Shown: in pieces, positions 6,907 through 16,868 of the stretch
How the letters are laid out: every line of letters begins with the position of its first letter
How positions within the stretch are numbered: the first letter of the stretch is position 1
DNA from: Methylobacter sp.
GTDB taxonomy: Bacteria > Pseudomonadota > Gammaproteobacteria > Methylococcales > Methylomonadaceae
Assembly (NCBI GenBank): GCA_030699385.1
Contig: JAUYMY010000073.1
Location: forward strand, 1 to 64,000
Direction: 5' to 3'
DNA length: 64,000 nucleotides
Notes under the pieces: model-generated
What the model was told of the DNA's origin: nothing
Database searches by the model: none
The model's input: the letters and a program-made list of their open reading frames with translations, nothing else
Position numbers and translations under genes: made by a program

Positions 6907-9605
6907 GAGTTCTCCTTGGGCTTTTCCATTCGGGTTAATCCTGTATTGACGTGATAAAAGTAGGTGTAGTTACCCTGTTGTGCGACAAAGTGGCCGTTTG
7001 TAGTTGTTTGCATGGACAGCCAGATAAGGCCGTCTTTGTCGGCTTCCGGCAACCTGCCGTGCTTGCCCCAGCTTTTCGGCACAGCAACGCTATTCAGATT
7101 GACGGCCTCCCAGCGTTTGCTTTCATCCAGCTTGTCTATAAGGTCGCAGTTTAATAAACAACGTTCGCCCTGCGTGTCGGTATAGAAAGGAGTCACGTTC
7201 AGGCTCATATCGCCGTCACGAGTCAACGCGGCAACATGGCTGTCGTTGTCGGAAAGCTCGTTCATATTGCTGTTAATCAGTTGCTTGGCCGTCATTTGAC
7301 TGACCCAACAAACTTCTTCATAAGCTTCGAAACTTTTTAGCACCCATTCAGGTTCATCCGGCCAGACTTCTTCGTTATAAACCGACTCAATCCAATCCCG
7401 ATAAGCCGCAGGGAAACTGACTTGAGATTCCGTTTCTTGCTCCGCTTTCTGTAAACATTGCTGAGTCCGCCACAGCACCCGGCTATTGCCGTAGATCAAT
7501 TCATGCAATTCATAATCGTCTTCAGTCGGCAATAAAACGGTACAAACCGGCTGCTGATAGTATTCCGGCCTGCTGCGTAAGTGGCGGTGCAAACGACCCA
7601 TGCGTTGAAACAATAAATCTACCGGGCAAAGCTGGGTAATCATCCAGTCGAAATCCAGATCCAGCGACTGCTCGACCACTTGAGTGGCGATTAGTAAATG
7701 GCCCTTGCTTCTGGCATCTGCCGGTTCAGGCTTCGCCCCGAATAGGTTCAGAACAGCCTGCTCTTTCTTTTGCCGATCAGCAAAAATAAAGCGGGAATGA
7801 AACAATAGTAACTGATCTTCGCTGAATCGTTCGTCTTGCTCTATCCGGTTCAATACGTGCTGATAAAGCTGTTGTGCGACCGCGACGAGATTGCAGACCA
7901 GACACACTTGAGCGCCCTGCGCTACCGCATCAAGCAAACGTTGAATAAAGTCATCGTCGGGCAATAAGTGGGGCGTTTTAATCAGTTCCAGTTGTACCGA
8001 TGTTGGTTTGGGTTGCTGATCGGGTTGTTCCGCTAAATCGAATAAGGCCGTTTGCCCTGCGCTGCAATAACTGATCAACGGATAGGTTCGATTGTCTGCG
8101 GCTAACCCACAACCCCAGGCTTTCGCCAACTGGATTTTTTGATGGAACGGCAAAGTCGCCGACAATAAAATCGCACTGCCTCCGGCAAGGCGCTGTTGCT
8201 CCAGAACAGCATCCAACAAGCCGTACATATAGCTGTTGTAAGCATGAATCTCATCAATGACCAAAACGCTACGACCAATACCGAAGCCGCGCACAAACTT
8301 GTGCTTGACAGGCAGCACCGACACCAAAACCTGATCGACGGTGCAAACGCCGATCTGGCCAAGAAAGACCCGTTTACGGCTTTGCGCCAACCAGTTGCCG
8401 CATTGCACCCAGGCTTCTTCATGGCCTTGGGCTGTATTCGGCTGACAGGCCTGTTTTAAATCGATGAAATTTTGTTCGTATTTAGCCCGACCATGCGCCA
8501 GTACCACGTTGGTCTGATTGGTAAATAACAGAGGTGCTGCTTGTTCCAAGCGTTTTAACATTGCGTTGGCTGTGGCTTGAGTCGGCAAAGCAAACACAAT
8601 GCTGTCAGCCAAACCCAATGCCAACAACTGCCATGCGTATGCCAAAGCAGCTTCAGTTTTCCCCGAACCTGTTGAAGCTTCTATCAACGTTAAGCCTTGT
8701 ACTTTGGGCAACCGTTCAACAAGACATTGAATCTGTCGGGGCGAATGGCCGTTTAATAGCGCATTGATAGCCTGATAAGGCCTGATTTGGCTGATGACAC
8801 CTGCTTCCTCAAGCGTTTTTTTCGCAATCTCCAACCGACTTTTATACCATTGCGTTAAATCATCGCAAGGCTGGTTATCGTAACTAAACCGTTCGGACGA
8901 CCCCAGCCAATCGCTTACCGAACAGAATCCGGCCAGCATTGTTGCTGACGATTGGCTGTTTTTAGTGGTTGCAAGCAATGGCGGCGTGTCATTCAGCGAC
9001 AATCCGGCTGGCGTAAGAAACAACGGCTCTAAGGCTTTCAGCCATTGCTGCCTTGATTGTTTAAATGCGTCCAAAATCAGTTGCGAAATACCGTGTAGCT
9101 GGTATTTTGCATTGTCTTTTTCATGATCTTGCGGCACAACGCCATGATGTCCGACTACCGGTGCTAGCCAACTGCACCATGCTTCCCAATCATCGTTGTC
9201 ATCGCAATAAAAATCATCGTCTCCTGACGAAAATCGTTCCTTCAAATCCTGATAAAACCAGTACAGCCCGGCCGGGCCGTGGTTATATTCTTTAATCGAT
9301 TGTCCGTTTAATTGCGTTGGAATTGAACTTAACTCGGCGTTGGCTGCTTTCCATGCCTCCGGCGCTTTTCGCTGAAAACGTAAATCGAATTTGCCGTAAT
9401 CATGCAAAGCAATGAAAAACAACAGCCATGCACGGGTTTGTTTTTCGTTTAAACCGGTAATCCCAACAAAACGGTGACTAATATGGTGACTTTGATTCCA
9501 CCAAATATCTGCCACTGCCGCCACATCCAGACAGTGATACGGCAACAGATGATAGCTATTGCCCTGTTCGTCACTCGAACCGGCCTTGCCCCAATATCGG
9601 TACAT
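6903..9605 (-). CDS. cas3: CRISPR nuclease-helicase Cas3
   Basis: Cas3 is recruited by Cascade and degrades target DNA. The protein has 900 residues when started at the ATG at 9605; a GTG six bases upstream is in frame but touches the ribosome binding site AGGAGG, so it is unlikely. The N-terminal HD nuclease has LHDYGKFD (about residues 68-74), NHGPAGL, GHHGV and SDWLGS. The helicase has Walker A ASTGSGKTEAA (near 312), VIDEIHAY, LLSATLP, QVVEQSLDLD and QRMGRLHRH. It is the first gene of the operon and looks complete, so interference is probably functional. Confidence 0.97.
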   Translation of the reverse strand: MYRYWGKAGSSDEQGNSYHLLPYHCLDVAAVADIWWNQSHHISHRFVGITGLNEKQTRAWLLFFIALHDYGKFDLRFQRKAPEAWKAANAELSSIPTQLNGQSIKEYNHGPAGLYWFYQDLKERFSSGDDDFYCDDNDDWEAWCSWLAPVVGHHGVVPQDHEKDNAKYQLHGISQLILDAFKQSRQQWLKALEPLFLTPAGLSLNDTPPLLATTKNSQSSATMLAGFCSVSDWLGSSERFSYDNQPCDDLTQWYKSRLEIAKKTLEEAGVISQIRPYQAINALLNGHSPRQIQCLVERLPKVQGLTLIEASTGSGKTEAALAYAWQLLALGLADSIVFALPTQATANAMLKRLEQAAPLLFTNQTNVVLAHGRAKYEQNFIDLKQACQPNTAQGHEEAWVQCGNWLAQSRKRVFLGQIGVCTVDQVLVSVLPVKHKFVRGFGIGRSVLVIDEIHAYNSYMYGLLDAVLEQQRLAGGSAILLSATLPFHQKIQLAKAWGCGLAADNRTYPLISYCSAGQTALFDLAEQPDQQPKPTSVQLELIKTPHLLPDDDFIQRLLDAVAQGAQVCLVCNLVAVAQQLYQHVLNRIEQDERFSEDQLLLFHSRFIFADRQKKEQAVLNLFGAKPEPADARSKGHLLIATQVVEQSLDLDFDWMITQLCPVDLLFQRMGRLHRHLRSRPEYYQQPVCTVLLPTEDDYELHELIYGNSRVLWRTQQCLQKAEQETESQVSFPAAYRDWIESVYNEEVWPDEPEWVLKSFEAYEEVCWVSQMTAKQLINSNMNELSDNDSHVAALTRDGDMSLNVTPFYTDTQGERCLLNCDLIDKLDESKRWEAVNLNSVAVPKSWGKHGRLPEADKDGLIWLSMQTTTNGHFVAQQGNYTYFYHVNTGLTRMEKPKENS

Positions 9606-9743: not shown

Positions 9744-10418
9744 TCAATTAACACTCATTTTTAATGCCGCCGCGACCGGCAATGGCGCTAACACTAAGGC
9801 CATCAATAAAATGGCAATTAGGATATTAATTTGGGCATCGACAGGCAAACCGGTGCCCGCCATTTGTACGGCATTGCCGGCAAATATCAATACCGGAACA
9901 TACAGCGGCAACACCAACAGCGACAAAATCATGCCACCACGGCGCAGGCCTACGGTCAACGCCACGCCAATCGCGCCGATTAAACTCAATACCGGCGTTC
10001 CCAGCAGCAAGGTCAGCAACAAAATACCCAGCGCGTGATTGGGCATGCCTAAAAAAACCGCCAGCAGCGGCGCGACTATCAACAGCGGCAAACCGGTGAC
10101 TAACCAATGGGCGATAATTTTAGCCAGCACTAACACGGAGGTCGGATGCGGGCTTAATAGCAATTGCTCCAGCGAGCCGTCGTCAAAATCGGAACGAAAC
10201 AGGCTATCCAGCGACAACATCGCTGCCAGCAAGGCGGAAACCCAGATAATGCCCGGCGCAATGGCTTGTAATAAATGCGGCTGCGCGCCGATGCCTAGCG
10301 GGAACAGGGTGATAACCAGGATAAAAAACAGCAGCGGGTTGGCTATTTCGGAACGGCGCCGCAGCGCCAAAACCAGGTCGCGCCGGATAACGGCAAAAAA
10401 TGCACGGGATAAGGACAT
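9744..10418 (-). CDS. ccmB: Heme exporter subunit CcmB
   Basis: CcmB is the membrane part of the CcmABCDE transporter needed for cytochrome c maturation. The product has 224 residues with about six hydrophobic helices and the family pattern RRSEIANPLLFFILVITLFP near residue 21, followed by DDGSLEQLLLSP. It overlaps ccmA by one base (TGATG). The next genes of the usual operon (ccmC, D, E) do not follow; the CRISPR-Cas locus does. No sequence damage is visible. Confidence 0.95.
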   Translation of the reverse strand: MSLSRAFFAVIRRDLVLALRRRSEIANPLLFFILVITLFPLGIGAQPHLLQAIAPGIIWVSALLAAMLSLDSLFRSDFDDGSLEQLLLSPHPTSVLVLAKIIAHWLVTGLPLLIVAPLLAVFLGMPNHALGILLLTLLLGTPVLSLIGAIGVALTVGLRRGGMILSLLVLPLYVPVLIFAGNAVQMAGTGLPVDAQINILIAILLMALVLAPLPVAAALKMSVN

Positions 10419-11038
10419 CAGGATAAATTGATACGTTGGACATCGACATCAGGCAGGTCGATGTCGTGATGCGAGGTGAGGACAATCATACCGCCATTGG
10501 CGCAATGTTCGGCCATTAAGGTTTCAATCAGGGCAATGCCTTGTTTGTCCAGTGATGTGAACGGCTCGTCGAGTATCCACAACACGTTTTCGGTAATCAG
10601 CAAGCGGGCTAAAGACAAGCGCCGTTTTTGCCCCGCCGATAAGGTCTGCACCAGAATGTCATCATAGCCGGTCAAATGCACTTTGCTTAACGCTTGGTCG
10701 ATTGAATACTGGCCTGCACTGCTGAGCGCCAACGACATTTTCAAATTTTCCAGCACGGTCAGTTCTTTTTTAATGCCGTCTAAATGGCCGACATAAGCCA
10801 TTTGTGCATAAAACTGGCTGTCTTTTACTGCGTCGCCGCACCAGTGAAGGGCGCCGACATCAGGTTCACGAAAGCCGCACAAAATGCGCAGTAACGAGGT
10901 CTTACCGCTGCCGTTTTTGCCTTCCAGCAAGAGTACCTGGCCTGCAACCAACTCAAAAGCCAGTTGCTCGAACAGCACCCGGTCATCGCGGATGCAGCTT
11001 AAATCGGTGCCTGCAAGAGAATGTATGGATGGGCGCAT
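10418..11038 (-). CDS. ccmA: Heme exporter ATP-binding protein CcmA
   Basis: This is the ABC ATPase that drives release of heme from CcmC/CcmE in cytochrome c biogenesis. It has 206 residues with Walker A EGKNGSGKTSLL (near residue 38), signature LSAGQKRRLSLARLL (near 133) and Walker B LWILDEPFTSLD. Length is usual for CcmA. It begins three bases after rlmB, an association not usual in E. coli, so cytochrome maturation here appears to be transcribed from the rnr-rlmB operon. Confidence 0.95.
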   Translation of the reverse strand: MRPSIHSLAGTDLSCIRDDRVLFEQLAFELVAGQVLLLEGKNGSGKTSLLRILCGFREPDVGALHWCGDAVKDSQFYAQMAYVGHLDGIKKELTVLENLKMSLALSSAGQYSIDQALSKVHLTGYDDILVQTLSAGQKRRLSLARLLITENVLWILDEPFTSLDKQGIALIETLMAEHCANGGMIVLTSHHDIDLPDVDVQRINLS

Positions 11039-11041
11039 GGG

Positions 11042-11788
11042 TTAGACAATAGCCGAGCGCTGGCGCAAAGTCTCATACAGCAACACGCCGGTCGCAACCG
11101 ACAGGTTAAGGCTTTCCACCTTGCCCAGCATCGGCAGTTTGACCAGCACATCGCATTGCTCTTTAGTCAGGCGCCTTAAACCTTTGCCCTCGGCACCGAC
11201 AACCAGCGCCAGCGGCACGGTGAAATCGGTTTGGTACGCGGTCTGCGTGGTTTCGCCCGCCGCACCCATCACCCAGATGCCCTGCTCTTTCAGCCAACGC
11301 AAGGTTCTGGCCAAATTAGTCACTTGATAAACAGGCACGGTTTCCGCCGCGCCGCTGGCGACTTTACAAACCGTCGGGGTAATCCCAGCCGCATTGTCTT
11401 TCGTGACAATCACGCCGTGTACGCCGGTCGCGTCGGCGGTTCTAAGGCAGGCGCCAAAATTGTGCGGGTCTTGCACGTTATCCAGCACCAAAAATAACGG
11501 CATTCCAGTCAACGTCAACACCGCGTTTTTTAAATCGCTTTCCGATAGTTCAGTGGGCATATCGACTTCAATCACGATGCCTTGATGGTTCTGACTATCG
11601 GCCAATTTATCGAGTTTTTTCCGCTCGACTTTTTCCGGCTCTATGCCTAAATCCAATAAATCGTCGATTAACTGTGTTAAGCGTTTATCTTGTCTTAGGC
11701 TGTCAACCCAGGCCTTATTGATTTTTTTCGGGGAATAATCTAAAGCCGACTGCACCGAATGCAGGCCGTATATTTTGCTTGGTTTCAT
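11042..11788 (-). CDS. rlmB: 23S rRNA (guanosine-2'-O-)-methyltransferase RlmB
   Basis: RlmB methylates G2251 of 23S rRNA (E. coli numbering). The 248 residues hold an N-terminal substrate-binding domain (IYGLHSVQSALD) and a SPOUT domain with VLDNVQDPHNFGACLRTADA (about residues 100-119), VVGAEGKGLRRL and LPMLGKVESLNLSVATGVLLYE, which form the knotted SAM site. In E. coli rlmB directly follows rnr; here an AIPR gene stands between, only five bases upstream. No good ribosome binding site precedes the ATG, so translation probably depends on the gene in front. Confidence 0.95.
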   Translation of the reverse strand: MKPSKIYGLHSVQSALDYSPKKINKAWVDSLRQDKRLTQLIDDLLDLGIEPEKVERKKLDKLADSQNHQGIVIEVDMPTELSESDLKNAVLTLTGMPLFLVLDNVQDPHNFGACLRTADATGVHGVIVTKDNAAGITPTVCKVASGAAETVPVYQVTNLARTLRWLKEQGIWVMGAAGETTQTAYQTDFTVPLALVVGAEGKGLRRLTKEQCDVLVKLPMLGKVESLNLSVATGVLLYETLRQRSAIV

Positions 11789-11793
11789 TGTTA

Positions 11794-13551
11794 TTACAGA
11801 AGTAATGGATCAGGTATTGAATCATCGCTGGGCGAATGAGTAAGCGCTAACTCTTTATTTAACAGCCAATGTGATCTAAAAGACTTAAAATAGCTATTGT
11901 GTGAATAAGTCGATTTGCTTTGTGCTTTTTCCTCTTTTTCAAGTTCTATACCCTTAGGAATGGCATGATAAACAGCCGAATAACAATCGCCCATCCGTTC
12001 TTTAACAAAACCACCTGATTTTTTCATTAATTTATAAATGCCATAGGCAATCAACTCATCGGCAAACAAAACAAAGTCTGACTCATGTTTTTGAGTTTGG
12101 CGTTGCGCCACAACAAACTCATAAATCCAAAATGTTTCAAGAAGTTGTCGATAGATAGGCGAGTCTTTGCTGCCATTAAATAAAGGATATAACTTATTAT
12201 TCTTGTTGGTTGTCGCATCAAAAAGTTCTTCAAGTACCTTAGACTTGGCACTTTTTGCCCGTCCTGGTTGCTCATAAAATGTGGCATACCAAAACTTGAG
12301 CACAGTTTCGCTATGGACTGATTTTTGTAAAGAAATACTCAGTTTGTTTTCAAATGTTTCACCACGTTTACTTAAATAACCAATACCGGCATTAGCAAAT
12401 ATTTCTTTGGTATATTCATTAAAAAGACGGGTACTTATTTTATCGCGGTAATTGATCGGCGACTGGGTATTAGTCGCTTCGGTAATTTTATCTATAAGTT
12501 CGGGCTCGGTCGTTTCATACAGCCTAACCACCACATAAATATCTTCTAGTTTGTTGCGGTCTTGTTGATAAATCTCATAGATAACATGCGTGGTTTGCAA
12601 GCCGTTGACGATAACCGGATTAACCACCTCAAGCGGATAAAATCCGACTTGCATTTCTTTAGGGATTTTTACACGCTCAGCAATAATAGTAATGCCGTTA
12701 TTTAAAAAAGGAAAATATTCAGCATCGTCGCCTAATAGCGTGGCACGAATATTTTTGTTAGTTTTGTTATAACGTAAAAAACCACGAATATTATCACTAA
12801 ATACCGTATCAATACGCTTGTTTGTATGCTGCTCCAAGTCTAGCAATTTGCAAAGCTCCAGGGCGGGTAAACGAAAATTTACCGCTTTGACATTCTGTAT
12901 AGAAAATGAAATTAACGCTTGGGGATCGCTACGCAGCGAAATATTTGATTTTTCCGCCATGAAGCTGAAAGTAACAGGCTTGCGTTTTTTTCTTTCTGAA
13001 ACCAGATTATCAATTTGTTCATATAAATCCTGGCTATCAAAAACTTGCAGATTATCGGTATTTTCAACATGACGATCAATTCGGGGTTTTGTAGCGCCAG
13101 CTTTTTCACCCTTAAACACAAAATACAAACGCGTTTCGACGACCCTACCTGAACTGACTAACGTTTGATAGATTTGCAAAGCTGAACTGACTTTTTCATT
13201 CAAAGGCAAATTTAACGTATTACCGTAAACAAAAACAGTACGAAAATCATTAACGAATTTGGCTAGTTCATTATCCCCAACAGAATCGGATGATTTTATC
13301 TGAAAAACATGCAGGATATTTTCATCCTCATCTTCTTCAAGATAAATCCCATCAAATCCACCATCATTTCTCCCGTTAATATTACCGCTGTTATCTTTTA
13401 TTAACGTGGACGCATGATCATATACTTCATCAAAACTCAAATCCAAAATGGCCGCTATCGCCAAAATTTCAAACGCAAACGGTTTTTGCAAACTAAATTT
13501 ATCGGCAATTCGATCAATATAGCCGCTAAAAAAAAGTTCTTTGTTCATCAT
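11794..13551 (-). CDS. AIPR-family abortive-infection phage-resistance protein
   Basis: This 585-residue protein belongs to the AIPR family (abortive infection phage resistance, PF10592). The diagnostic part is NPVIVNGLQTTHVIYEIYQQ (about residue 310) followed by a conserved ATNTQSPIN segment. The N-terminus carries a probable PD-(D/E)XK nuclease core: D67 in GGFDG, then Q84 and K86 in VFQIKSS, as in restriction-endonuclease-like folds. I infer a nuclease-type defence protein; its trigger is unknown. Its ATG overlaps the rnr stop (ATGA), and rlmB starts five bases after its stop. Single lines counted by hand give about 30% G+C here against about 53% in rnr, which suggests horizontal transfer. 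Confidence 0.88.
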   Translation of the reverse strand: MMNKELFFSGYIDRIADKFSLQKPFAFEILAIAAILDLSFDEVYDHASTLIKDNSGNINGRNDGGFDGIYLEEDEDENILHVFQIKSSDSVGDNELAKFVNDFRTVFVYGNTLNLPLNEKVSSALQIYQTLVSSGRVVETRLYFVFKGEKAGATKPRIDRHVENTDNLQVFDSQDLYEQIDNLVSERKKRKPVTFSFMAEKSNISLRSDPQALISFSIQNVKAVNFRLPALELCKLLDLEQHTNKRIDTVFSDNIRGFLRYNKTNKNIRATLLGDDAEYFPFLNNGITIIAERVKIPKEMQVGFYPLEVVNPVIVNGLQTTHVIYEIYQQDRNKLEDIYVVVRLYETTEPELIDKITEATNTQSPINYRDKISTRLFNEYTKEIFANAGIGYLSKRGETFENKLSISLQKSVHSETVLKFWYATFYEQPGRAKSAKSKVLEELFDATTNKNNKLYPLFNGSKDSPIYRQLLETFWIYEFVVAQRQTQKHESDFVLFADELIAYGIYKLMKKSGGFVKERMGDCYSAVYHAIPKGIELEKEEKAQSKSTYSHNSYFKSFRSHWLLNKELALTHSPSDDSIPDPLLL

Positions 13552-15839
13552 TTCTTACGGCGTCTTTTTTTAGGCTTGCTATCCATTGCGGCACTTTTTT
13601 GCGCCAACTCAAAATCGATTTTCTTTTCGTCCAGGTCAACACGGACGACCCTGACCTGAACGCTGTCGCCCAAGCGGTAATTAATACCGGTGCGCTCGCC
13701 TCTGAGTTGATGACTGGTCGCGTCGAAATGAAAATAATCCTGCGCCAGATTGCTGATATGGATCAGGCCTTCGACATAAATATCCGCCAGTTCGACAAAG
13801 AAACCAAACGAGGTCACGGCTGAAATGATACCGGGGAATTCGTCGCCGACCTTATCCATCATATATTCGCATTTGAGCCAGCTCACCACATCACGCGTCG
13901 CATCATCGGCGCGGCGCTCATTGGCGGAACACTGTTCGCCCAAAACAACCATATCGGGAACGCCATAGTAAAAGCTTTCCACCGGTTTGCCTTGCAAACA
14001 ATGCCGGATGGCACGATGCACCAGCAAGTCGGGATAGCGGCGAATCGGCGAGGTAAAATGCGCGTAGGCTTCCAACGCCAGACCGAAATGGCCTTTTAAT
14101 TCAGGACTATAAACAGCTTGCGACATTGAGCGCAGCAGCACCGTTTGTATCAAATGCGCGTCGGGCCTGCCTTTAATCGATTCCATCAAGTGCATATAAT
14201 CCAGCGGCGTCGGTTTGTCGCCGCCTGCCAAACTCAAGCCTAGCTCACCCAAAAATACTTTTAAATTCATCAGCTTTTCAGCACCCGGCCCTTCATGTAC
14301 GCGCAGCAGCTTGGGCATTTTTTTGCCATTTAAAAACTTCGCCGCCGCCATGTTCGCGGTAATCATGAATTCTTCGATCAATTTGTGCGCATCGTTACGT
14401 ACCACCGGCACAATTTTTTCAATTTTGCGCTCGCTACCGAAGACAATCCGGGTTTCCTGGGTGTCGAAATCCATCGCGCCGCGTTGTTCGCGACTCACCC
14501 GCATCACTTTGTACAGCGCATACAGCTCCTGCAAATGCGGCAGCACGGCTTTATACTTGTCGGCCAAAACCTGCGCCGAACCTGCTCCCGGCAGGTTTTC
14601 GGCATACACACCATCCCTGGTGATATCGCCATCAACCAGCATTTTTGCGACTTCATCATAGGTCAGGCGGGCATGGGAGCTCATCACTGCATCGTAAAAA
14701 CGCGACCGCGTTACCTGGCCTTCCGCATTAATCAGCAACTCGCAAACCATACATAAACGGTCTACCTGCGGATTCAGCGAACACAAGCCATTCGATAAAA
14801 TCTCCGGCAACATCGGTATGACCTGCTCAGGAAAGTACACCGAGGTGCTGCGTTTTTGCGCTTCCTTGTCCAATTCCGAATTAATCTGCACATAATGTGA
14901 AACGTCGGCAATGGCAACTAGAAGCTTCCAGCCTTTGGCCGTTTTTTGGCAATAGACGGCATCGTCAAAATCGCGCGCATCTTCGCCGTCAATCGTGACC
15001 AATGGAATTTTGCGCAAATCAACGCGCCCCTCTTTGGCCGCTTCCGGCACTTCTTTTTTCAGCGGTTTTATTTCTTCCAGCAACTCATCAGGCCATTGAT
15101 TGGGCAGGCCATGGGAGCGAATCGCCATCTCTATTTCCATGCCCGGCGCCATGTGTTCGCCCATGACCTCAATAATCCGGCCGATAGGTTGGCGCAATTT
15201 AGTCGGCTGTTCGACAATCTCAGCAACAACAATTTGCCCTTGTTTGGCTTTGCCGGCACCGCCTTTTTGCAGCAAAATGGTTTGCGCGATATTTTTATTT
15301 TCCGGCACCACATAAGTAAAGCCGTCTTCCTTATACAGCCGACCGACGACCTGATGCGTATTCCGCTGCAGAATCTCAACCACCGCACCTTCCCGGCGGC
15401 CTTTTTTATCGACGCCGGCAATTCGCACCAATGCCCGGTCATTGTGCAACAACGGATTCATTTCCCGTGGCGATAAAAACAAATCATCGGAGCCGTCATC
15501 CGGCTTAATAAAACCGAAACCGTCAGCATGTCCGATAATGCGCCCGGCAATTAAATCTTCATTATTAACTAGGCAATATTTTTTGCCCCGGTTAAACAAT
15601 AACTGCCCGTCCCTTTCCATCGCACGCAATCGGCGGCGTAACGCTTCCAGCTGATCTTCACTATCGAGCGTAAACGCCTCGGCGATTTCTTCGCGGTGCA
15701 AAGGCTTCCCTGCATGTTCGATTAATTGCAAAATTAATTCGCGGCTAGGGATAGGGTTTTCATATTTCTCAGCTTCGCGCTGAGCGTATGGGTCTTTTGT
15801 TGAATTAAAATCAACGTCTTTTTTAGACTTTAGTGTCAT
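13548..15839 (-). CDS. rnr: 3'-5' exoribonuclease RNase R
   Basis: RNase R degrades structured RNA and acts in rRNA quality control and trans-translation. The 763 residues comprise an N-terminal winged helix (ELILQLIEHAGKPLHREEIAEAF), cold-shock domains (GRIIGHADGFGFIKPDD), the RNB catalytic domain with the Asp cluster IDGEDARDFDDAVY (near residue 280), TSPIRRYPDLLVHRAI, and a C-terminal S1 domain (FPGIISAVTSFGFFVELADI). It ends in a basic tail PKKRRRKK. It heads a chain rnr-AIPR-rlmB-ccmA-ccmB in which no gap exceeds five bases, so one transcript is likely. Confidence 0.97.
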   Translation of the reverse strand: MTLKSKKDVDFNSTKDPYAQREAEKYENPIPSRELILQLIEHAGKPLHREEIAEAFTLDSEDQLEALRRRLRAMERDGQLLFNRGKKYCLVNNEDLIAGRIIGHADGFGFIKPDDGSDDLFLSPREMNPLLHNDRALVRIAGVDKKGRREGAVVEILQRNTHQVVGRLYKEDGFTYVVPENKNIAQTILLQKGGAGKAKQGQIVVAEIVEQPTKLRQPIGRIIEVMGEHMAPGMEIEMAIRSHGLPNQWPDELLEEIKPLKKEVPEAAKEGRVDLRKIPLVTIDGEDARDFDDAVYCQKTAKGWKLLVAIADVSHYVQINSELDKEAQKRSTSVYFPEQVIPMLPEILSNGLCSLNPQVDRLCMVCELLINAEGQVTRSRFYDAVMSSHARLTYDEVAKMLVDGDITRDGVYAENLPGAGSAQVLADKYKAVLPHLQELYALYKVMRVSREQRGAMDFDTQETRIVFGSERKIEKIVPVVRNDAHKLIEEFMITANMAAAKFLNGKKMPKLLRVHEGPGAEKLMNLKVFLGELGLSLAGGDKPTPLDYMHLMESIKGRPDAHLIQTVLLRSMSQAVYSPELKGHFGLALEAYAHFTSPIRRYPDLLVHRAIRHCLQGKPVESFYYGVPDMVVLGEQCSANERRADDATRDVVSWLKCEYMMDKVGDEFPGIISAVTSFGFFVELADIYVEGLIHISNLAQDYFHFDATSHQLRGERTGINYRLGDSVQVRVVRVDLDEKKIDFELAQKSAAMDSKPKKRRRKK

Positions 15840-16091: not shown

Positions 16092-16178
16092 GCCGAGGTG
16101 GTGAAATTGGTAGACACGCCAGCTTCAGGTGCTGGTAGGGGCAACCCTGTGGAGGTTCAAATCCTCTCCTCGGCACCA
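16092..16178 (+). tRNA. leuT: tRNA-Leu (anticodon CAG)
   Basis: The 87 bases fold as a class II tRNA: acceptor stem GCCGAGG/CCTCGGC, D-arm with the GTGAAATTGGTAGAC pattern, anticodon stem CCAGC/GCTGG with loop TTCAGGT (anticodon CAG, reading CUG), a long variable arm (AGGGGCAACCCT), T-arm GGAGGTTCAAATCCTCT, and an encoded CCA end. The gene symbol is generic. No intrinsic terminator is clear after it; tsaC follows 132 bases downstream on the same strand. Confidence 0.97.
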
Positions 16179-16310: not shown

Positions 16311-16868
16311 ATGGCTTATCACGCCTCTTTCAAAATAAAAACCGCTGTCCGACACCTTAAAGCCGGAGCCGTTATTGCGTACCCAACAGAAGCTGTCTAC
16401 GGCTTGGGCTGTGACCCGCTTAACGAAAATTCCGTGATGAATTTACTCGACATCAAACAGCGCCCAATAGATAAAGGCTTGATTCTTATTGCCTCATCGT
16501 TGGAACAACTGCGCCCCTACCTGCTATTAGACCAAGCCATCATTGAGCGCGTCAGCCCCACTTGGCCGGGTCCTGTCACCTGGATTATTCCCGCCCAAGC
16601 CTGGGTGCCGACATGGCTGACCGGCGCACACCAGTCGCTGGCCGTCAGAGTCACTCATCACCCGATAGCGCGCGATTTATGCGCACAATTTGGCAGTCCG
16701 TTAGTGTCCACCAGCGCCAATCCGACCAGCCGGCCCGCTATTAAAGATTCGAGAAAGCTATTAAAAACCCTTGCCGGCGCCGACATTTTTATCGTTCACG
16801 GCGCAATCGGCCAGCTTGAACAAGAAACCGCCATTTATGATGCGATTAGCGGAAAAAAATTGCGCTAA
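16311..16868 (+). CDS. tsaC: Threonylcarbamoyl-AMP synthase TsaC
   Basis: TsaC (YrdC/RimN) makes threonylcarbamoyl-AMP from threonine, bicarbonate and ATP, the first step of t6A37 tRNA modification. The 185 residues match the short TsaC form (E. coli 190) without a Sua5 domain. Characteristic parts are GAVIAYPTEAVYGLGCDP (residues 18-35), KQRPIDKGLIL, WPGPVTWIIP and STSANPTSRPA. It is alone on the plus strand after a tRNA gene; a hairpin lies just beyond its stop. Confidence 0.95.
   Translation: MAYHASFKIKTAVRHLKAGAVIAYPTEAVYGLGCDPLNENSVMNLLDIKQRPIDKGLILIASSLEQLRPYLLLDQAIIERVSPTWPGPVTWIIPAQAWVPTWLTGAHQSLAVRVTHHPIARDLCAQFGSPLVSTSANPTSRPAIKDSRKLLKTLAGADIFIVHGAIGQLEQETAIYDAISGKKLR

Follow-up and report, generated by a model that had tools for sequence, protein, structure and literature searches.

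The closest described counterparts of the locus reported here, an AIPR/AbiU-family gene lodged between rnr and rlmB in 64,000 nucleotides of Methylobacter sp. DNA (contig JAUYMY010000073.1, positions 1 to 64,000; this whole stretch is called the window below), are core-genome defence hotspots. In Pseudomonas aeruginosa, cDHS1 and cDHS2 are described as sites with fixed core-gene flanks, variable defence content and no single mobile element; their median sizes are 26 kb and 6 kb, and they hold numerous systems; cDHS1 has a lower guanine-plus-cytosine content (GC), and transfer of these sites by recombination through the flanks was suggested (PMC10250203). The rnr-rlmB slot is a hotspot in the same sense, with core flanks, variable defence-type content and empty sites, but it lies inside a tight operon, often keeps start/stop overlaps with the core genes and holds one to three defence-type genes in its resolved occupants, so that it does not form a large multi-system island. 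The defence-island hotspots of Escherichia coli are also defined by flanking core genes and empty in most genomes, as the slot is, but unlike the slot they carry prophages, satellites, transposons and integrative and conjugative elements; rnr and rlmB do not occur in the main text of their description (PMC10121019). AIPR/AbiU genes and core defence hotspots are already known; our searches, limited to open-licence PMC papers, turned up neither a defence slot inside a tight housekeeping operon nor a paper that describes one at rnr-rlmB.

The rnr-rlmB joint and its occupants

We consider it likely that the joint between rnr and rlmB in the Methylobacter family (Methylococcales) is a recurrent slot for small defence modules without integrase, which are read-through passengers of a core operon. 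On the minus strand of the window the order is rnr, AIPR-family gene, rlmB, ccmA and ccmB (Table 1). The AIPR gene overlaps rnr by 4 nt and ends 5 nt before rlmB, and ccmA and ccmB follow just as tightly (3-nt gap between rlmB and ccmA, 1-nt overlap of ccmA with ccmB), in agreement with a first-pass annotation of the window. The same annotation judged the gene more AT-rich than its neighbours, and the computed GC is indeed 0.37, against 0.50–0.54 for rnr, rlmB, ccmA and ccmB; at third codon positions (GC3) the values are 0.32 and 0.56–0.64. The open reading frame (ORF) is intact. Between positions 9600 and 16400 neither promoter-like sites (6 vs 9.6 expected from shuffled sequence) nor terminator-like sites (9 vs 10.0) are in excess. 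The view that a defence-type gene, overlapping rnr, was inserted in the operon is upheld. As had also been stated, rnr and rlmB are neighbours in E. coli K-12, where the order is purA-nsrR-rnr-rlmB and the annotated distance from rnr to rlmB is 179 bp.

To describe the joint in relatives, matches to rnr and rlmB were paired per contig in a family sample of 91 genomes. Both genes lie on the same contig in 67 of them, with a gap of up to 200 bp in 58 and of at least 600 bp in 9, and 18 of the 58 short gaps sit at the coordinates of a 4-nt rnr/rlmB overlap; the rest of the sample comprises 17 genomes with rnr and rlmB far apart or on separate contigs and 7 with no match to one or both. Within the genus, the two genes are less than or equal to 10 bp apart in 13 of 21 pairs, and in the sequences of the empty genus genomes that we fetched the ATG of rlmB overlaps the rnr stop as ATGA. 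Seven of the 21 joints are interrupted (G000, G020, G005, G006, G008, G013 and G018). The AIPR gene was detected at E ≤ 1e-60 in two of 23 genus genomes, at the joint in both, namely in the genome of the window (G000; 3.57 Mb, 84 contigs) and in G020, its nearest relative in our searches; the other 21 lack it. The first-pass annotation had called the gene permanently coupled to its neighbours, a claim that is not supported, as most sister genomes are empty and others have unrelated modules at the joint. Nor do all relatives carry the gene with host-like codon use, a finding that by its own account would have refuted the annotation: the gene occurs in the two of 23 genomes just mentioned, and its GC3 of 0.32 stands against at least 0.56 in the neighbours.

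Three unrelated modules are alternative occupants of this joint. A pair of HipA-like and HIRAN proteins, listed in PADLOC as PDC-M03A/B, was recognised there by PADLOC in G006 and G008 and by similarity in G013, where the HipA reading frame is split; the module in the window thus occupies the joint that PDC-M03 occupies in three relatives, but it is unrelated to it in sequence, and PDC-M03 is not present in the window. The other module consists of an AAA_15/AAA_21 ATPase and a protein of 189 aa, and was found at the joint in G018 and, outside the genus, in G031; in G001 it lies behind rnr, with rlmB on another contig. Neither Pfam nor PADLOC gives a match to the 189-aa partner at E ≤ 0.01. This partner is 71% identical between two genera (L023:960-1529, minus strand; L027:2434-2997, plus strand) and follows the ATPase wherever the ATPase is at least 48% identical and the sequence suffices, while tblastn found no such partner with six distant ATPases (33–35%).

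We searched 237 family genomes for the AIPR, AAA and HipA modules (AIPR and AAA at E ≤ 1e-60, HipA at E ≤ 1e-30; flanks checked by tblastn; contig ends hide some loci). The AIPR gene has 15 copies in 14 genomes: it lies between rnr and rlmB in seven (G000, G020, G159, G163, G249, G254 and G259) and beside a single flank in three (before rlmB at a contig end in G256; behind rnr, with rlmB not next, in G043 and G292), and five copies are elsewhere. The AAA gene has 21 copies, of which six are between both flanks (G018, G031, G166, G174, G247 and G259), three behind rnr only (G001 and G248, with rlmB not next, and G079, at a contig end) and 12 elsewhere or not placed. HipA is present in 10 genomes and between both flanks in three (G006, G008 and G013). 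In total, a module stands between rnr and rlmB in 15 of the 237 genomes, which belong to four genus groups (AIPR 7, AAA 5, HipA 3; one AIPR genome also has AAA), and six more, adding one further genus group, have a module beside one flank. Two modules are stacked in G259 (L081), in the order rnr-AAA-partner-AIPR-rlmB-ccmA-ccmB. The junctions are tight on the rlmB side: the AIPR-rlmB gap is 2–6 nt in seven of the eight loci in which that side is visible and 34 nt in the eighth, and the AAA partner overlaps rlmB by 4 nt in three of five loci.

The occupation of the same place in five genus groups, and the repetition of (A)ATGA at both ends of several inserts, could also be the mark of a site-specific mobile element that targets the 3' end of rnr and carries the modules as cargo. 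Two further loci point in this direction: in G016 (L030) the joint holds an 88-bp insert resembling a repetitive extragenic palindromic (REP) sequence, with a second copy of the last rnr bases, and in G089 (L046:1022-1546) an ORF that by eye is like a REP-associated transposase stands directly behind rnr, at a contig end. We regard such an element as improbable, since no integrase or transposase was found with Pfam and PADLOC among ten insert proteins, or in the AIPR protein, since ATGA is forced by the start and stop codons, and since the distance from rnr to the module varies from -4 to 435 nt.

As a control we used the rlmB-ccmA joint. In the genus, none of 22 such joints reaches 600 bp (largest 284 bp), against seven of 21 at rnr-rlmB (Fisher p 0.0036, to be taken only as a guide because the genomes are related and independent events are fewer). 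In a class sample of 187 genomes, excluding the genome of the window and G093, at least 120 have rnr and rlmB paired on one contig, and among the matches listed 96 of 120 gaps are up to 350 bp and 18 are at least 600 bp. In these 18 long intervals, again among the matches listed, none of five module proteins gave a tblastn match at E ≤ 1e-3. A PADLOC search with ten proteins encoded in nine of these long intervals gave matches to models for ZorB (OmpA/MotB-like), DrmC and Mko and one weak match to PDC-M57A, which we read as shared generic domains; the other nine loci were viewed as ORFs. The content viewed seems to consist of other genes, among them lipoprotein-like and phospholipase-like ORFs (partly by eye). 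In E. coli (5,426 genomes searched), a match was obtained in 5,375, and in 5,373 of these a single place covers at least 80% of the joint query, with no module-size insert, in a test that joins pieces up to about 1.1 kb apart and could let a shorter insert pass. A general gammaproteobacterial hotspot at rnr-rlmB is not supported by the class and E. coli samples, and the slot therefore looks like a feature of the methanotroph family rather than of rnr-rlmB in general.

Table 1. Positions of the slot, its flanks and the following genes in the window
Feature	Position	Strand	Remarks
rnr, RNase R, 763 aa, 5' flank of slot	13548..15839	-	NCBIfam TIGR02063, E 4.6e-262
ATGA overlap of rnr stop and AIPR start, 4 nt (AAATGATG)	13548..13551	-	rlmB ATG overlaps the rnr stop here in empty genomes
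AIPR/AbiU-family gene, 585 aa, inserted module	11794..13551	-	Pfam AIPR, E 9.5e-45; PADLOC AbiU, E 4.7e-44; GC 0.37
Predicted Mrr-like PD-(D/E)XK nuclease domain, N-terminal, about residues 1-190	12982..13551	-	E28, D67, Q84, K86 invariant
AIPR domain, residues 251-504	12040..12801	-	Pfam AIPR
5-nt gap, AIPR stop to rlmB ATG	11789..11793	-	
rlmB, 23S rRNA Gm2251 methyltransferase, 248 aa, 3' flank of slot	11042..11788	-	TIGR00186, E 2.4e-80
ccmA; rlmB-ccmA is the control joint	10418..11038	-	TIGR01189, E 2.3e-68
ccmB	9744..10418	-	TIGR01190, E 7e-81

Upstream of rnr, a tRNA gene (Leu by eye) is located at positions 16092-16175 on the plus strand, between rnr and a divergent ORF at 16311 that resembles tsaC. 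At the other end, homology between the window and the sister genome G020 (L077) stops about 2 nt past the ccmB stop, after which G020 continues with a 299-aa ORF, ccmC and ccmE, none of which has a match in the window. A second defence locus thus lies past the stop of a core gene in this operon, and the contig of G000 starts at the array.

The AIPR protein and the modules outside the slot

The protein in the window belongs to the AIPR family (PF10592; 154 bits against a cut-off of 25). The PADLOC model AbiU (PDLC02357) aligns with residues 8-496 of 585 over profile positions 6-467 of 537, covering most of both; the PADLOC search gives no cut-off for this model. The protein thus resembles the known AbiU/AIPR proteins over most of its length and differs from them in being encoded by a single gene in a housekeeping operon. 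We also considered MzaE, the AIPR-family protein of MZA systems (NF041935), and rejected it: the match is weak and local, with 30.1 bits against the NCBIfam equivalog cut-off of 1050, and the neighbours in the window are rnr, rlmB, ccmA and ccmB. A second, distant AIPR gene is present in G000 itself (contig C27:6074-6919).

The first-pass annotation described a PD-(D/E)XK-like N-terminus. In favour of this, residues E28, D63, D67, Q84 and K86 are invariant across 22 aligned AIPR proteins, down to 41% identity, and the conserved acidic and QxK residues are what we take to be the PD-(D/E)XK active-site motif. Mrr_cat was matched at E ≤ 1 in 18 of the 22 proteins, that of the window included (best 2.9e-6), and passes its cut-off in the Crenothrix homologue with 23.7 bits. 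The structure model of the N-terminal 196 residues has a mean predicted local distance difference test score (pLDDT) of 90, and its best eight fold matches in PDB, weak at E 0.019–0.10, are entries of N.BspD6I, Card1, HamA and Bse634I, all PD-(D/E)XK nucleases of restriction or defence type. For the full-length model the pLDDT is 78.6 and the predicted template modelling score 0.45, with weak fold matches throughout, and a PDB sequence search with the protein found nothing at E ≤ 1. We take the protein to be a probable nuclease, with a predicted Mrr-like domain joined to an AIPR domain. No relative is encoded in 30 pattern-matching stretches of viral contigs; matches were found in 8 phage records and 111 plasmid records, all below 60% identity.

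Copies outside the slot often have a similar position, behind core genes of other operons. The AAA module is located between an lpxI-like gene (E 2e-36, below the model cut-off) and lpxB in G089 and G292, with the 189-aa partner overlapping lpxB by 4 nt in the latter; in G290 it precedes an ORF resembling lpxB (by eye), in G277 it follows lspA, in G267 it follows mnmA and is upstream of purB, and in G175 a broken form follows a photolyase-like gene. In G294 one AIPR gene follows glyA at 106 nt and a second copy follows sdhB at 2 nt; AIPR genes also follow rfbH at 18 nt in G180 and rfaH at 184 nt in G171. Further copies follow leuS at 10 nt in Flavobacterium branchiophilum and a phosphofructokinase gene at 218 nt in a Kapaibacterium metagenome-assembled genome (MAG), and one is inside an apparent sugar operon in a Gracilibacteria MAG. 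Of 18 AIPR kin, 15 (all but L083, L084 and L093) have a co-directional ORF as their nearest upstream neighbour, 1 to 851 nt away, a count that alone proves little because same-strand neighbours are common in bacteria. No operon pattern was seen by eye for the HipA/HIRAN copies outside the slot (seven of the 10 genomes, some of them limited by contig ends); one such copy (L151) is near an apparent type I methylase gene.

These positions bear on the proposal that the nuclease keeps watch on RNase R or on 23S rRNA methylation, its place in the operon having been selected for that purpose; the annotation had suggested that the gene could sense the state of rRNA or RNase R. The tight overlap with rnr and rlmB, and the retention of one AIPR clade at the joint in three genus groups, would fit such a partnership. 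We nevertheless find it quite improbable, because several unrelated modules share the joint, the AIPR gene is missing from 21 of 23 genus genomes, and its nearest kin outside the slot stand behind glyA, with another copy behind sdhB in the same genome and others behind leuS and in sugar operons; the AAA module is likewise found behind lpxI-like, lspA and mnmA genes.

History of the slot and weighing of the explanations

In the AIPR tree, a single clade (93/92, not starred) unites the slot copies of Methylobacter with those of two related genus groups, and it is adjoined by the G294 copy behind glyA (100/99). The AIPR genes of Crenothrix D3 and of a Lac Pavin MAG, located 40 nt behind rnr with rlmB not next, group with a Saprospiraceae protein (100/100) and, according to the tree, are a second, separate AIPR lineage lodged behind rnr. 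The UBA662 copy joins Methylobacter in the AIPR tree (91/92), and the rnr tree places this genome with its own group (99/98). The GC of the AIPR gene is 0.37–0.42 in the first slot clade, 0.29 in Crenothrix and 0.25–0.30 in the distant and G294 copies.

The AIPR gene is under purifying selection: three close pairs give ratios of nonsynonymous to synonymous substitutions (dN/dS) of 0.03, 0.08 and 0.13, the third value being based on 274 codons. That the gene is decaying foreign DNA without function, as its low GC and patchy presence might indicate, is very improbable given these ratios, the intact ORF and the invariance of the candidate catalytic residues. The number of synonymous substitutions per site (dS) between G000 and G020 is 0.083 for AIPR, 0.165 for rnr (z 3.1) and 0.212 for rlmB, and between G254 and G256 it is 0.047 for AIPR and 0.230 for rlmB, so that AIPR is below rlmB in both pairs compared (z 3.7 and 4.4). 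Since local recombination would give such a pattern, the data suggest local exchange of the AIPR gene in these two pairs, and not in a third, from Crenothrix.

According to the explanation that we favour, a module at this joint would have no promoter of its own and would be transcribed from the rnr promoter by read-through, the AIPR gene being translated by termination-reinitiation at ATGA. The nuclease would be made constitutively, at a low and steady level, alongside RNase R and RlmB; upon phage infection some cue would activate it, nucleic acid would be cut and phage production would stop, either directly or through cell death. No special partnership with RNase R would be required, as the operon would supply expression and a tolerated place, and the modules may pass between relatives by homologous recombination via the conserved flanks. 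The seamless fit that the annotation found odd is not surprising, because in the empty site it is the ATG of rlmB that overlaps the rnr stop. The inserted gene takes over this coupled position, with rlmB following after a short gap; an insertion that disrupted the expression of rlmB would not have been retained.

Several observations weigh against the slot as we propose it. Six of the 21 slot genomes have a module beside a single flank, with rlmB not next in G001, G043, G292 and G248 and a contig end in G079 and G256. Two inserts show no clear defence gene: the 7.5-kb insert of G005 (L024), which encodes a BTAD/AAA regulator and a protein that by eye is GGDEF/EAL-like, has no clear defence match in Pfam or PADLOC and is apparently not defence, and G023 has an insert of about 720–780 bp with no recognised gene. 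The HipA/HIRAN and AAA modules are only candidate defence, by their PADLOC names. For the AIPR protein, Mrr_cat reaches 14 bits in the window protein, below the cut-off of 21, so that the PD-(D/E)XK idea of the annotation, though supported, stays below threshold when this protein is taken alone, and the fold matches of the N-terminal domain are weak (E 0.019–0.10). Nor is low GC peculiar to the slot: in G171, G178 and G180, copies outside it also have a GC of 0.37. As to exchange, dS in the Crenothrix pair is higher for AIPR (0.382) than for rnr (0.305), and no long donor or foreign tract was found in the flanks of G000, which resemble its own genus. Finally, the first AIPR clade mostly tracks host genus, and vertical descent was not rejected (approximately unbiased test, p 0.139).

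This last result is what would be expected if the AIPR gene were an old vertical resident, inserted once in the ancestor of Methylobacter and the two related genus groups and lost repeatedly, the slot being that insertion and a few others. The single clade of slot copies speaks for it, as does the rnr-AIPR overlap common to G000, G020 and G159, and seen by eye as TAATG in G163. Against it, the ATGA overlap persists in empty sister genomes, as it does in other genus groups, and each loss would need to restore it; the AAA and HipA occupants need separate entry in any case, and GC, which is 0.25–0.37 in the off-slot kin, gives no clear verdict. For these reasons we hold an old resident to be possible, although unlikely.

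Beyond the family, we tentatively suggest that some defence modules without integrase generally hitch-hike behind the stops of core genes in housekeeping operons, borrowing transcription and ATGA-type translational coupling and being exchanged like alleles between relatives, and that rnr-rlmB is one such slot, strongly favoured in methanotrophs. If this were true, the operon would give constitutive low expression, and the slot, not a mobile element, would be the unit of immune diversity. Tight placement in an operon need not mean a functional link, which is a warning for the reading of similar loci. Listing the interruptions of otherwise fixed core-gene joints offers a search rule, and the 189-aa AAA partner, found in this way, is a candidate for a new component of defence. 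Searches for defence genes usually turn to islands, prophages or the neighbourhood of integrases; a core-operon slot with unrelated modules of one to three genes would hide part of the immune repertoire among housekeeping genes, where it would probably be expressed constantly and might be transferred by ordinary recombination.

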